Shown in pieces: positions 16,037 to 21,598 of a stretch of DNA of 64,000 nt. Position 1 is the stretch's first letter; the number at the start of each line of letters is the position of its first letter. The position numbers were made by a program, and so were the translations under genes. This DNA comes from Acaryochloris sp. CCMEE 5410 (GTDB taxonomy: Bacteria > Cyanobacteriota > Cyanobacteriia > Thermosynechococcales > Thermosynechococcaceae), in the NCBI RefSeq assembly GCF_000238775.2, contig NZ_AFEJ02000003.1:186001-250000 (forward strand). The letters run 5' to 3'. The notes below the pieces were generated by a model. That model saw only the letters and a list, made by a program, of their open reading frames with translations, had not been told where the DNA came from and did no database searches.

Positions 16037-16801
16037 TAATATACTTCATCCAAGCCATCTAGGAGGATAAGCAGACTACCAGCTTTGAGAGCTGTATCTG
16101 TGAATTCTGAGGCTTCAGGAAAACCACAGGTTTCAAATTCTTGGACAATCGAGACTTTAAGGTTTAGTTCTTCGCTGGTAAAATTCTTTAGCTCCAGAAA
16201 AACGGGAATTTTGTCATGTTTATATTGACCATTCTTGCCGTGTAAGGCTTCAAGCCCTATCTTTCTAAGGTAAGTCGTTTTGCCGATTCCTGGCCCTCCC
16301 AAGACACATAGGGATGCTTCAGCATTAGCCACATCCATCCCGTTTTCCGGTTCACAATATTCCTGAGAGAATCCACGCCGATTAGCTTCACGTTGAGCTT
16401 TTTCCATATTCTCAACGGACACAAATGGCTTAACCGTCTCAGCATCCAGTATCCGCACTTTTGTAAAAACATCTTCTAAGGACATTGCTTTTGACATGCC
16501 CAATACCTGGATCTGTCCATGTCGCTTTAGATATGTCTCCATGTATTTCTTAGTAGGATCATGGAACTTGCGCTTTAGATCCTCCAATTTCTCAGGAGCG
16601 GCATCACCAGCCTTTTTTACTGCAATCTTGAGTACTTCTTGGAGCAAGAATTCAAGCATGGGTAAGGTGGGCTTGGCCTTCGGGAGGTAGGTTTGTCTTG
16701 AGAATAGGTGATATGTTGCTGACTATCAAGACAACAGTTCCAGCCTGCAACGGCTTATGGCTACTCCGAAGTCAAGCCAACTATTTTCTGAAGGGTGTTT
16801 A

Positions 16802-19015
16802 ATGAACAAGAATTATGGGGTAGATATTCCTGAAGTCAAACTCATCACCTTTCCAAGGACGGAAGCAGATCAAGCATCGCCTCCGAAATCCATCCCTAGA
16901 GGCAGACCACCACAGATTCCCACGCCGATGGATATCCGATGGCCGATGGTTCAGGAGTTCCTACGTAACAGCAATTTATCTCCCAATTCCCAAAAGCTCT
17001 ATGAGAGGGAGCTAAAACGTTTCTTGGGCTGGACCCATTTTCGATGGTCGGATCTGACGCTTCGGCACCTGGGCCAGTACAAAGCCTACCTGATGGAGCT
17101 AAAGGTCGCTGAAGGAAAGACGCTTTCCAAAAATAGTCTCAATAGTGCATTGACGGCCCTCAAAAGTTTCTTCAAATGGCTGACCCAGTTTCACCCGGAG
17201 CTATGCCCCACCAATCCCACCAAAGGGGTGAAGTTTGAAAAGGTGCCTTTGCCCCCGGCCCAGAATCTAACCCCGGAGGAAATGGCGCGAGTCTGGGATG
17301 CGATCGCACAGCGGGAACAGACCCAATTGCGTGACCTGGCCCTTGTGCAACTGCTCAGTCATAACCTTCGAGCGGGGGAAGTGGTAGCTGCCAATGTGGG
17401 GTCTTTTGATGGCCGCTTGATTAGTATTACCAAAACAAAGAATAACCAACCTCGGCTCGTACCCCTTTCAGCAGAGGGTCAGCGGGTGGTTCAGGATTAT
17501 CTAGATTGGCGACAGGAACGAGGGGAAGCGTTATCGGCTGAGTCTCCGTTGATTCTATCCCACCACCAAGGCTGGGAAGGGCAGCGTCTCAGCTATCATG
17601 GGGTCTATTTCGCCGTGGAAGATATCGGCAGATTAGCGGAACTCCCCGATCTTCACCCCCATCAGTTTCGACATACGAGTGCGACTGAATATCTGAGAAT
17701 GGGGTTAGACCCAGCCCATGCCCGACGATTAACGGGCCATACGGATGAGCGAACCTTTCGGCGATATACGGTGGCGGCAGAACAAGAGGCTGCAATCTCT
17801 GCGTTTTACCGGGCAGAAGCGGAGGGGCAACCCTTAGTCTATGCCCAGTCGTTGGACCGGAAGCAGCGTCAATTACTGGAGGCATTAGCAGAGATGACGG
17901 GGAAGTCTCCCCTGTACCAAGACGATTTGGATGAGGGGATGATTGATTTTGCTCAGCTCTGGCAGGAGAACTTATGGGAACTTGAGCGGTTGGTGGCTGA
18001 TGTGCGGGCTTTGCCAGAAAAGCTAGGAATGGCAGGTTTTGTGACAAATGAACGACAGTCGATATCGCTAGAAGAACGGGTTCTGCGTGGCGAAATACCC
18101 ACCGATGAAGCGCTAGGGCTAGATGCTGTCGTCGAAGAATCTTCAGACTGTCCCCAGGTAAGCTTTGTGGAGAGTTCTCTTCAAGTCGTTCATTTGGGCA
18201 TGAAGCTATGGGTTAAGGGTAAGAAAAAAGGCAAAGTCAGGAAAGCGATTGAGGAGCGGGTGCTCGATCAGTTTCAGATGATTAAGCCAAAACCCAGGGG
18301 AATTCAATACGAGCTGATGTTTGTCTTTGATAAAGAGGATGACCTATCGCAGATTGTTGCCCAGATGCGCTGGGATATGGATCTACTGGCTGAGTTAGAT
18401 GACTGTTCAGTGGAGGTGAAGTGGTTGGACGAGGTTCCTTGGGAGATGGGACAACAAGGTATTGCTACTGAGACAGGGACACCATTGAATGCAGTATCCA
18501 GCATCTATCAATTAAAAATCACGCTGTTGGGCGTCCGGCCCCAAGTCTGGCGGCGGTTTCAAGTCCCAGAGACGATGACACTCACCCAACTTCATTCAGT
18601 GATTCAAGTCGTGATGGGGTGGGAAGGTTACCATCTGCACCAGTTCTCGGAGAGCGAAGACGAAACTCTCACATTGGTGGAACTGCTCGGAGATGACCTA
18701 TTCTCATTCGGCTATACATACGATTTTGGAGATATGTGGCAGCACGAAATTGAGGTGGAGAAAAGGTTAGCAAGTAAGCCTGGGCAAGACTATCCAGTGT
18801 GTCTGGTCGGGAAGCGGGCCTGTCCACCGGAAGACTGTGGTGGGGACTGGGGATATGCCCATCTGCTGAGGGTTCTGAAGAATCCCCGACATTCACAGTA
18901 TGAGGAAAGAATGGAATGGGTTGGCAGCGATTTTGACCCGAAAGTGTTTGATCTGGAGGGGGTGAATCAAGTACTGAGGGAGCTTGAGGATGAGATAGTG
19001 GGGTACGACAATTAA
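16802..19015 (+). CDS. Tyrosine recombinase fused to a pRiA4b ORF-3-like domain
   Basis: A 737-residue protein. The N-terminal SAM-like core-binding domain (VQEFLRNSNLSPNSQKLYER) and catalytic domain span roughly residues 50-340: SHNLRAGE (first Arg), ITKTKNNQPRLVPL (Lys strand), HPHQFRHTSATEYLRM (HxxRH) and LTGHTDERTFRRYT (His and Tyr nucleophile). All key residues are visible. After a ~230-residue linker, residues ~575-720 match the pRiA4b ORF-3/IS1096 TnpR passenger fold (YQLKITLLGVRPQVWRRFQV, MGWEGYHLHQF, YDFGDMWQHEIEVE, GKRACPPEDCGG). Start chosen at 16802, with AAGGG 6 bp upstream. A recombinase next to a partition locus could resolve plasmid dimers or mobilise a cassette. Confidence 0.85.
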   Translation: MNKNYGVDIPEVKLITFPRTEADQASPPKSIPRGRPPQIPTPMDIRWPMVQEFLRNSNLSPNSQKLYERELKRFLGWTHFRWSDLTLRHLGQYKAYLMELKVAEGKTLSKNSLNSALTALKSFFKWLTQFHPELCPTNPTKGVKFEKVPLPPAQNLTPEEMARVWDAIAQREQTQLRDLALVQLLSHNLRAGEVVAANVGSFDGRLISITKTKNNQPRLVPLSAEGQRVVQDYLDWRQERGEALSAESPLILSHHQGWEGQRLSYHGVYFAVEDIGRLAELPDLHPHQFRHTSATEYLRMGLDPAHARRLTGHTDERTFRRYTVAAEQEAAISAFYRAEAEGQPLVYAQSLDRKQRQLLEALAEMTGKSPLYQDDLDEGMIDFAQLWQENLWELERLVADVRALPEKLGMAGFVTNERQSISLEERVLRGEIPTDEALGLDAVVEESSDCPQVSFVESSLQVVHLGMKLWVKGKKKGKVRKAIEERVLDQFQMIKPKPRGIQYELMFVFDKEDDLSQIVAQMRWDMDLLAELDDCSVEVKWLDEVPWEMGQQGIATETGTPLNAVSSIYQLKITLLGVRPQVWRRFQVPETMTLTQLHSVIQVVMGWEGYHLHQFSESEDETLTLVELLGDDLFSFGYTYDFGDMWQHEIEVEKRLASKPGQDYPVCLVGKRACPPEDCGGDWGYAHLLRVLKNPRHSQYEERMEWVGSDFDPKVFDLEGVNQVLRELEDEIVGYDN

Positions 19016-19694
19016 AAAACAGTTGATGGTGGGGAATTTGACCTGGGATTTTCGAAGAAGATAGCGCTACATGTATACATTTATAATCTTAGATAAAGAG
19101 ACAAGTATACTTCTAGAGGGGAAAGGCACAATCACAGATGCTCAACTTCTGGAGTCAGATTGAACCAAAGATACCGTAGGATTTTAGAAAAATTAAGTCT
19201 ATATGTATACATTTATATTTATCGACAACTAGATAAGTAGACATTTATATATCGATTGTTTTATGGTGCATTTGAAATGAGGCAACAGGGACTATGGCCC
19301 CGACTTTATGAGCATTGACGCATCATGTAGAATCAGCAAAATGGACAATTGATTCTTTGTTGTAGACATGTATACATGTATAGAAAACGACGATAGTACA
19401 CTTATATTCACATCTGCACTGCCACAGGTAGACATGTATACATATCTACCTGTATATTGACTATCGTCATCTGTATGGCCTTCAGCCACAATTGGTAAAT
19501 AAGAAAAAGAACATTACCAAAGTTGAATTTACTTCCAAGCATGAGCCACGTGTATCTTTATCGACACTTCTAAGATTAGAAATGTATACATGTCGGCACA
19601 TCTAAAAGTAGTTCAATATGAACCAATGAAAAACAAATATGTATACACCTATAAAATTCTTTAGGTATAAATGTATACATTTAGAGGAGTTAAC
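19016..19694. repeat. Centromere-like array of TGTATACA palindromes upstream of parA
   Basis: Perfect or near-perfect copies of ATGTATACAT lie at 19071, 19203, 19369, 19434, 19582, 19639 and 19671, with degenerate versions (AAGTATACTT at 19103) between them. Several extend into longer palindromes such as ACATGTATACATGTA. Spacing is irregular. The last copy sits just before the parA ribosome site, so it would also act as the parA operator. This is the arrangement of type Ib partition loci, where the RHH protein binds the centromere and represses the operon. Confidence 0.75.
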
Positions 19695-20315
19695 ATGAAG
19701 ACAATATCTTTACTCTCACAAAAAGGTGGGGCAGGTAAGACGCTGTTATCAGTAAATTTGGCATCTTACGCAGCGAGCCAGGGGGAGACGGTTGCAATTA
19801 TAGATATAGATGGTCAAGCCTCATCATGTGTATGGCATGACGAGAGGGAGGACACGGAGGAGCTGCCTGAAATATCAGTGATTAGCTCTCAGCCAAAAAG
19901 ATTACCAAATGTACTCAAAGCAGCTAAGAAAGGAGGGGCTACGTTCGTTGTAATTGATACGAGTCCTAACTCAGAGGGTGCAACTTTAGAGGCTGCAAAG
20001 AATTCTGATTTTGGATTAATTCCATGCCGAGCTGCACTAGCTGATATCAAAGCTATTAGGAGCACTGTTGATCTGATCAAAATAGCCAATATTCCTGCTG
20101 GGATCGTGATTAATGCTTGCAAGACCAAGGGCTTAGCATATGACGCCCAAACAGCTCTGGGAGTTTATGGCTTACCTATCGCCGATGTAGTAATTGGCGA
20201 TCGCACCCCCTTTAATCATGCCTTTACCAGTGGGCTGGGTATTTGTGAATATGAGCCAAAGTCAAAAGCCGCTAACGAAATAAGATTGCTTTACCAATGG
20301 ATGTCATCAAAATAA
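19695..20315 (+). CDS. parA: ParA-family partition ATPase
   Basis: A 206-residue ParA/ParF-type ATPase with the deviant Walker A QKGGAGKT at residues 9-16, DIDGQAS (A') near 43 and VVIDTSP (Walker B) near 90. It lacks the N-terminal HTH of type Ia ParA, which fits a small type Ib protein. The ATG at 19695 has GAGGAG 6 bp upstream; the open frame to 19671 overlaps a palindrome and is not needed. It forms a nucleoid-bound gradient that moves plasmid copies apart, together with the RHH protein at 20621. Confidence 0.9.
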   Translation: MKTISLLSQKGGAGKTLLSVNLASYAASQGETVAIIDIDGQASSCVWHDEREDTEELPEISVISSQPKRLPNVLKAAKKGGATFVVIDTSPNSEGATLEAAKNSDFGLIPCRAALADIKAIRSTVDLIKIANIPAGIVINACKTKGLAYDAQTALGVYGLPIADVVIGDRTPFNHAFTSGLGICEYEPKSKAANEIRLLYQWMSSK

Positions 20316-20320
20316 TTATC

Positions 20321-20583
20321 TACATGTATACATGTGGACTATATTTACTGTATACATAGTTAAATCATCCATATCTTAGCTAAATGCATATTCTCATTTA
20401 CTTCTCCACCCCTTGGGAGAGTAACGCTAAAAACATCGGAGCATTAATCATGGCTAATTTGCAGGCAATAGAATAGCAAATCAACCAAGATAGACATGTC
20501 TACACGTCTACGAAGATTCATTTGGGAGTCGCAATTATTTCTACATGTGTACATATAAGAATATCTAAATGTATACATGTATA
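20321..20583. repeat. Second array of the same palindromes between parA and the RHH gene
   Basis: TACATGTATACATGT at 20321, TGTATACAT at 20350, ACATGTCTACACGT near 20493, CTACATGTGTACAT at 20541 and AATGTATACATGT at 20568. Several copies differ from the core by one base. Lying between the two partition genes, they could serve as further centromere sites and as an operator for the RHH gene. Confidence 0.7.
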
Positions 20584-20620
20584 AGTGTTCAATTCTAGAT
20601 AAGCCGAGGAAAACTAGAGT

Positions 20621-20908
20621 ATGCCTACTAAAAAGAAATCTCTGACAAGCTCAATGCAAGCTGCAGCAGGTAACGACACTAACTTGCCAGAAGAAACTAC
20701 CGAGCAAAAGTCCGCATCACAGCCCAAGCTCTCATCAAGTAGGGCACCTGTGAGAGAGGGGACTCGTGCCATTGGAGGGCACTTTGCACCGGAAGTTCTG
20801 AAACAGCTCAAGCTGATTGCATTGGAAAATGATACGACAAACCAAAAGCTACTGGGTGAAGCGCTCAATTTACTTTTTGCGAACTATGGAAAGCCGCCTA
20901 TCGCATAG
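20621..20908 (+). CDS. Ribbon-helix-helix centromere-binding protein (ParB/ParG-type)
   Basis: A 95-residue protein: a disordered, basic N-terminus (MPTKKKSLTSS) of about 50 residues, then a compact RHH fold (TRAIGGHFAPEVLKQLKLIA, ending FANYGKPP). The flexible tail plus dimeric RHH is the ParG design: the tail stimulates ParA ATPase and the RHH binds the palindromes. GAGGA lies 10 bp before the ATG. It is 305 bp from parA, with binding-site-like palindromes between, rather than directly coupled. Confidence 0.8.
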   Translation: MPTKKKSLTSSMQAAAGNDTNLPEETTEQKSASQPKLSSSRAPVREGTRAIGGHFAPEVLKQLKLIALENDTTNQKLLGEALNLLFANYGKPPIA

Positions 20909-20981
20909 TCCGAATATTCACCCTATACGAGGTCAAGCCGATATACGTGTAAAAACTTGCGACTCATAGTTGGCACAAGCT

Positions 20982-21371
20982 CTAATACAAGCTCTTTTCT
21001 GACTCAATATTAAAGGTCGTTACCCATTCGTCTCCTGATCTCCGAGAGATAGCGATGCCATGAATTTCACGAAGATCTTTTTTGTCTAAGCCACGATCCT
21101 TAAAGGATTTTTTCATCCTGTCAGGGAGCGAAGATGTTTCAAGCTTAAAAGTCGCTTTGTATCTTGAGTGTATTTCAGGCTCGGTTTTAGTTCCAAGATT
21201 TTCAGTGTCTTCAATATCAAATTTAGACACTTTTAAATGTGCTCCGCTATAAACTAGAGATTCATCGTAGTTCTCAACGATTTCATTCTTTGATGGGCCG
21301 ATTTGCTGGCTGCACCCAGTAAGGAGCAACAGAGCGATTAATGCTCGAAAACAGAAAGGTAATTTCTTCAT
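20982..21371 (-). CDS. Lipoprotein of unknown function
   Basis: A 129-residue protein with a typical lipoprotein signal: MKKLPFCFRALIALLLLTGC, where LLTGC is the lipobox and Cys 20 would be lipidated. The rest (a mix of short strands and charged segments with DRMKKSFKDRGLDKKDL) has no recognised domain. It faces the partition genes in a convergent orientation. GAGG lies very close to the ATG. Role unknown. Confidence 0.65.
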   Translation of the reverse strand: MKKLPFCFRALIALLLLTGCSQQIGPSKNEIVENYDESLVYSGAHLKVSKFDIEDTENLGTKTEPEIHSRYKATFKLETSSLPDRMKKSFKDRGLDKKDLREIHGIAISRRSGDEWVTTFNIESEKSLY

Positions 21372-21598
21372 ACCTCACCCACAATCAAACCTGATTAAGT
21401 TCCACATTGACATTGAGAAAGACAGCAAGCAATAAAGAAATCCCTAAATCTCAGTAGATTTTAGTAAAAATGTACTTCTCTTATTGAGAAGTCAACTGAT
21501 TCCCTGTGAATAATCAGCAAAATTTTCCTCCCCAGCCCGTTCACCTCTTCAAGCGCTGGGTAAATTTCCAATAGCTACCGAGAATCCTTCGGCAGATT

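Follow-up and report, generated by a model that had tools for sequence, protein, structure and literature searches.

A small parA gene and, downstream of it, a gene for a ribbon-helix-helix (RHH) protein lie on contig C3 of an Acaryochloris genome (8.09 Mb in 23 contigs), and the noncoding DNA in front of and between the two genes carries an array of short palindromic boxes (Table 1). The window is the whole 64-kb stretch that was analysed, C3:186001-250000. ParA matches AAA_31 (4.2e-14) and CbiA (6.8e-13), and no N-terminal HTH domain was found in it by domain search; NCBIfam NF041546 (ParA_partition) scores 158.2 bits over nearly the whole length of the protein, below the 180-bit cut-off of the model. 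The ORF finder placed the parA start at 19671, within a palindrome. Homologs begin with MK at the second ATG, so that 19695 is the likely start.

The RHH partner that the initial annotation had proposed downstream of parA is borne out by a PF20605 match of 2.2e-24. In this protein, probably the centromere-binding component of the system, a long N-terminal tail is present and the residues IGGHF precede the first helix. An AlphaFold monomer model (mean pLDDT 67, low confidence) has helices at residues 57-69 and 74-89 and no strand. A Foldseek search with the model gave 41 matches, many of them RHH proteins (Arc, CopG), with a best E of 0.7 and none below 0.001, and phmmer found no relatives of the protein in the PDB up to E 10. 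A small ParA with a deviant Walker A motif and no HTH, a downstream RHH gene and adjoining iterated sites together make up a type Ib layout, in agreement with the type first assigned to the locus (type Ib ParA as defined in the excerpted text of PMC9178275).

The 129-aa ORF that follows on the opposite strand has no Pfam match over cut-off and no PADLOC match. On the other side, an ORF at 16757-19015 encodes a tyrosine recombinase fused to a PRiA4_ORF3 domain; its counterpart on contig C4 has a different front part and a related PRiA4 part. DNA matches to the locus were found in six plasmid records, all from Acaryochloris and each covering only 2-4% of the query.

Table 1. Features of the parA-RHH locus and its C4 counterpart (window positions unless another source is named)
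Feature	Position	Strand	Description
Cassette common to C3 and C4	18961..21505		about 2.5 kb
Mini-array A	19072..19111		perfect box 19072-19079 and 6/8 box 19104-19111, 32 bp apart (4 x 8)
Mini-array B	19204..19251		perfect box 19204-19211; 6/8 boxes at 19236 and 19244
Mini-array C	19361..19384		contiguous boxes TGTAGACA TGTATACA TGTATAGA
Mini-array D	19427..19458		four in-register boxes around perfect box 19435
Mini-array E	19583..19598		perfect box 19583 and a 5/8 neighbour
Mini-array F	19640..19679		two perfect boxes, 32 bp apart; ends 15 bp before parA ATG
parA	19695..20315	+	206 aa; deviant Walker A KGGAGKT; P-loop domain from residue 1
Mini-array G	20317..20356		two perfect boxes, 24 bp apart, and weaker boxes
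Mini-array H	20489..20512		TGTCTACA (7/8) and two 5/8 neighbours; no perfect box
Mini-array I	20538..20585		TGTGTACA and perfect TGTATACA, 24 bp apart, and weaker boxes; upstream of RHH ATG
RHH gene	20621..20908	+	95 aa; PF20605 (Antitox_RHH) at residues 45-94
Small ORF	20982..21371	-	129 aa; lipoprotein-like by eye; in both cassettes (C3, C4)
C4 par cassette	L005:4480-7500		on contig C4

Palindromes and mini-arrays of 8-bp boxes

With one mismatch allowed, the 10-bp palindrome ATGTATACAT occurs 13 times in the window, and 11 of these sites, eight exact and three with one mismatch, are concentrated at 19071-20578; under the same rule, shuffles of the whole 64 kb averaged 1.49 sites and never had more than 5. 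The "over ten copies" first reported thus hold if one-mismatch sites are counted, exact 10-mers numbering eight and exact 8-bp cores ten. Seven of the 11 sites lie upstream of the parA ATG and four between the parA stop and the RHH ATG; the copies do stand on both sides of parA, as proposed, with the downstream group inside the gene pair rather than outside it. The 8-bp core TGTATACA is present in its ten exact copies within 984 bp of noncoding DNA, where local shuffles lead one to expect 0.09. When two mismatches were allowed, 25 boxes were counted where shuffles gave 11.1 (sd 3.4), only a modest excess.

Genome-wide, 16 of the 19 exact ATGTATACAT copies fall in two par loci, eight at the window locus and eight at a second locus on contig C4. 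A repeat spread all over the genome, the finding that the initial annotation had named as fatal to its own reading, is thus not what the counts give. Around the other three copies (two on C1, one at C3:49546), no 8-mer at 8, 16 or 24 bp to either side has more than 4/8 box matches. At four places in the genome two perfect 8-bp cores are separated by 8-38 bp, and every one of these places is in the two par loci.

The repeated unit is better described as TGTATACA, an 8-bp box that recurs in an 8-bp register, than as the isolated 10-bp palindrome originally proposed. At 8, 16, 24 and 32 bp from the ten cores, the mean similarity to TGTATACA is 4.05 of 8; random anchors in the same DNA give 2.32 (sd 0.26), and none of 5000 draws reached 4.05. 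Similarity in the other phases is 1.35-3.10, the even phases being higher because the box alternates purine and pyrimidine. With the perfect boxes left out, in-register similarity is 3.84, as compared to 1.65-2.98 in other phases. The in-register similarity around the cores therefore resolves the array into nine mini-arrays, six (A-F) upstream of parA and three (G-I) in the interval between the two genes; each consists of a few graded boxes with the consensus TGTATACA as read from the DNA. Strong boxes, those with 7 or 8 matches, number just one or two in eight of the nine. The strong boxes are contiguous in C and separated by 32 bp in F, 24 bp in G and 24 bp in I; the remaining mini-arrays consist of a single strong box with weaker boxes in register. 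Of the box distances between 8 and 48 bp, 6/7 in the window and 3/4 in the C4 copy are multiples of 8.

Mini-array F probably serves as the parA operator, since a site immediately ahead of parA is found again in homologs, and mini-array I is the probable operator of the RHH gene. A promoter scan of the locus gave 5 sites against 6.9 in shuffles, nothing above chance. Within the second group, the C3 copy carries a 47-bp insertion at 20381-20427 that is not in the C4 copy; a stretch of about 41 bp from it is also present on C6, C7, C12, C16, C23 and other Acaryochloris plasmids, where the repeat sits inside a longer element.

A second copy of the cassette

Per 100 bp, C3 and C4 are 92-100% identical from 18961 to 21460, 71-92% before and 64% or less after; the drop at both edges suggests en bloc exchange of the cassette. 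The two ParA proteins differ at one residue (12 synonymous and 1 nonsynonymous change in the gene) and the RHH proteins at three, all in the tail (3 and 3 changes). The ten perfect boxes have no changes in 80 bp as compared to 48 substitutions in the other noncoding DNA, which spans 904 bp with 51 of these positions gapped (P 0.012); pooled with the boxes at 8 bp to either side, the conservation is not significant (P 0.09).

A TrwC relaxase match is present on each contig, and a CyRepA1 match over cut-off on C3 only, where some 150 kb of the contig separate it from the array. For C3 and C4, no exact terminal overlap (15-3000 bases) and no long reading frame across either junction was found as a sign of circularity. 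The ends of C3 (L105, L106) form a 2.4-kb inverted repeat, 96% identical, and the start of C4 (L107, 290-996) holds TrwC relaxase pieces with internal stops, the open gene being at C4:160962.

If the contigs of this draft assembly are separate plasmids, the near-identical par systems of C3 and C4 should compete. According to a study of cyanobacterial replication proteins, large cyanobacterial plasmids coexist without incompatibility, and in Acaryochloris marina MBIC11017 more than one rep gene is present on seven of the eight large plasmids (both from the excerpted text of PMC10899382). A bolder idea, which we consider rather unlikely, is that C3 and C4 are large co-resident plasmids with interchangeable cassettes, their strong boxes identical, that would be stable through a shared segrosome, tolerated or exploited by the scattered RHH centromere, and sorted as one pool, and that, separately, an RHH centromere made of short, spaced mini-filaments would break the contiguity rule of pSM19035. 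The duplicated cassette presents an incompatibility puzzle, and with it a test of how near-identical par systems coexist in one strain.

Related ParA-RHH pairs

RHH relatives were gathered from plasmids, species genomes and cyanobacterial genomes and kept if a ParA lay alongside, giving a sample of 35 distinct systems with our own genome left out. From 77 plasmid records matching the RHH protein and 3,835 matching ParA, 22 annotated stretches were picked by hand. RHH loci with no ParA match in range were dropped (the two G009 loci L018/L058/L096 and L021/L079/L097; L055/L099; L060/L103; and L065, L067, L086, L092 and L095), and loci whose RHH tails were identical were counted as one (for example L020 with L051, L036 with L037, L085 with L090, and C3 with the C4 copy). 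The fragment L083 was used in the hexamer and distance tests and left out of the triad and cluster/flank tests. Plain palindrome counts overlooked many homologs, in which the sites were revealed by allowing one mismatch and testing the register.

ParA/PF20605 pairs of Nostoc, Scytonema, Gloeobacter, Sphingomonas, Acidithiobacillus and others have the same gene order and related proteins. Among the 64 palindromic hexamers, GTATAC shows the strongest enrichment in the DNA that precedes parA and separates the two genes, with 37 copies against 5.6 expected, and is present in 24/35 systems. Second is ACATGT (18 against 5.2), the same sequence shifted by 4, and third is CGATCG (33 against 14.4), both over the 35 systems. 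Boxes of the same systems that match TGTRYACA with at most one mismatch give 33 distances between 8 and 48 bp, of which 29 are multiples of 8; in 200 shuffle sets the number of such multiples averaged 0.37 and was never higher than 2. The homologous systems are related, so that neither the hexamer nor the distance counts are independent draws, distances that share a box are not independent either, and the consensus was chosen after inspection of the data. By RHH cluster the multiples of 8 number 19/22, 3/3, 1/1, 1/2 and 5/5, other clusters having no such pair; one cluster of seven systems thus supplies 22 of the 33 distances and 19 of the multiples, and in five clusters the box pairs are mostly or half in register. 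In the 93,942 bases that flank the homolog loci, GTATAC is seen 17 times where 7.7 copies are expected, and 4/5 of the box distances are multiples of 8, a register that may reflect further sites there.

The presence of the box tracks a short motif of the RHH protein. In RHH proteins generally, such as Arc and CopG, the ribbon contacts DNA. The ribbon ends in Gly-His-Phe in 25/34 homologs, most of which have the box class of the window locus: GTATAC lies near the parA start or the parA/RHH junction in 22/25 systems with this triad as compared to 1/9 without it (Fisher P 7e-5, which is optimistic because the test ignores phylogeny, and for a grouping made after the sites were seen). The lone system with GTATAC outside the Gly-His-Phe group has Gly-His-Tyr. 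The three Gly-His-Phe systems without GTATAC at these places are L032, L089 and L093, L089 having only 193 bp upstream. The Gly-Tyr-Phe system L052 (Sphingomonas sp. gentR) has TGTGCACA-type boxes instead, some of them 8 bp apart, and no box was found around the Val-His-Phe pair L049 (Calothrix NIES-4105), the other end of the circular record included. The relatives support the predicted recognition of the box by the RHH protein.

Most of these pairs have fewer strong boxes than the window locus, and in many proteobacterial pairs parA and the RHH gene abut or overlap, which leaves no space for a second array. In many homologs the sites number just one to three, and a large array is therefore not needed family-wide; the sites that are kept lie at the parA start and the parA/RHH junction, from which we infer the self-regulation that was proposed at the outset. 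Of the 19 fetched stretches with both genes annotated, 11 also have an annotated rep gene next to the pair. The box accompanies the pair across cyanobacteria and proteobacteria while the neighbours vary, and the site, which had been judged well-defined if unusual, is typical of this RHH family and not an oddity of one plasmid.

Function of the boxes and comparison with known systems

The locus very likely encodes a type Ib ParA/RHH partition module whose nine mini-arrays, judging from their sequence and arrangement, form a split candidate centromere that is predicted to be bound by the RHH protein and probably provides operators as well. RHH dimers would read the DNA through the ribbon ending in Gly-His-Phe, one dimer per box, and would form short filaments on the 8-bp boxes. 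By analogy with TP228 and pSM19035, the N-terminal tails of these dimers would contact nucleoid-bound ParA-ATP and stimulate the hydrolysis that results in plasmid movement. Repression of parA and the RHH gene would be exerted from mini-arrays F and I, and the centromere would therefore double as operators.

It is improbable that the boxes are mainly operators, with the RHH protein an autorepressor or antitoxin and the centromere elsewhere. Nine mini-arrays over 1.5 kb exceed the needs of two promoters, A-E lying about 110-620 bp upstream of parA, although many homologs do keep just two sites, one where parA starts and another close to the parA/RHH junction. An antitoxin role would fit the Pfam name of the family, Antitox_RHH, and the toxin genes near some homologs (VapC in L045, PemK/MazF in L046, YafQ in L085, and RelE/ParE directly 3' of the RHH gene in L054); however, the annotated toxins in L046 and L085 have their own adjoining partner gene, and in the window the ORF that follows the RHH gene lacks a Pfam match over cut-off. 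One class of site can, moreover, do both, as ParG of TP228 binds parH and an operator (excerpted text of PMC7308502).

Much less probable still is that the boxes are sites of another regulator or replication iterons, adjacent to parA only incidentally. Iterons are likewise short repeats near plasmid maintenance genes, and RHH binding to the box is a prediction, but the box follows the parA-RHH pair from cyanobacteria to proteobacteria, its presence tracks the RHH triad, and the sole CyRepA1 gene over cut-off is distant on C3. Chance or low complexity of intergenic DNA that is 62-67% AT has a negligible probability, given ten perfect boxes where shuffles give almost none and a register that recurs in homologs.

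With the split centromere as the preferred reading, the PF20605 family would have a likely DNA code: TGTATACA boxes, an 8-bp register and a Gly-His-Phe ribbon. The family is antitoxin-like by its Pfam name, yet it sits with parA, often beside rep genes, on cyanobacterial and proteobacterial plasmids. Among the matches listed in the literature searched, no description of a family-wide box code was found, nor, in titles and abstract openings, of the PF20605 RHH family or the TGTATACA box as a centromere. If the code is true, centromeres and expected incompatibility groups would be readable from sequence, and the scattered layout would test whether RHH centromeres need long contiguous arrays.

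Among the closest known systems is delta/omega of pSM19035, which also combines a small ParA, an RHH ParB and short boxes in a fixed register, and in which parS also lies in the promoters of regulated genes. That plasmid has six parS sites, built of 7-bp heptads in contiguous runs, and fewer than four contiguous boxes do not activate ParA efficiently, at least four being required for full activation (excerpted text of PMC9499535). The window locus departs from the omega parS pattern in its period of 8, its sequence TGTATACA and its short graded runs scattered over 1.5 kb, and, set beside the four-box requirement of pSM19035, the one or two strong boxes in eight of the nine mini-arrays count against the split-centromere reading. 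The boxes of TP228 and the repeats of pB171 differ in sequence from those of the window, and parH of TP228 is one site upstream of the genes, whereas arrays also lie between the genes here. TP228 ParF/ParG/parH nevertheless resembles the window locus in its small ParA, in an RHH protein with a flexible N-terminal tail that also represses its own operon, and in a centromere of degenerate boxes with AT-rich spacers (excerpted text of PMC7308502). Two centromere regions per par locus are found in par2 of pB171 (parC1-parA-parB-parC2), where the second site follows parB according to the order of a construct list (excerpted text of PMC4270457), as compared to the window locus, in which the second group is enclosed by the gene pair.
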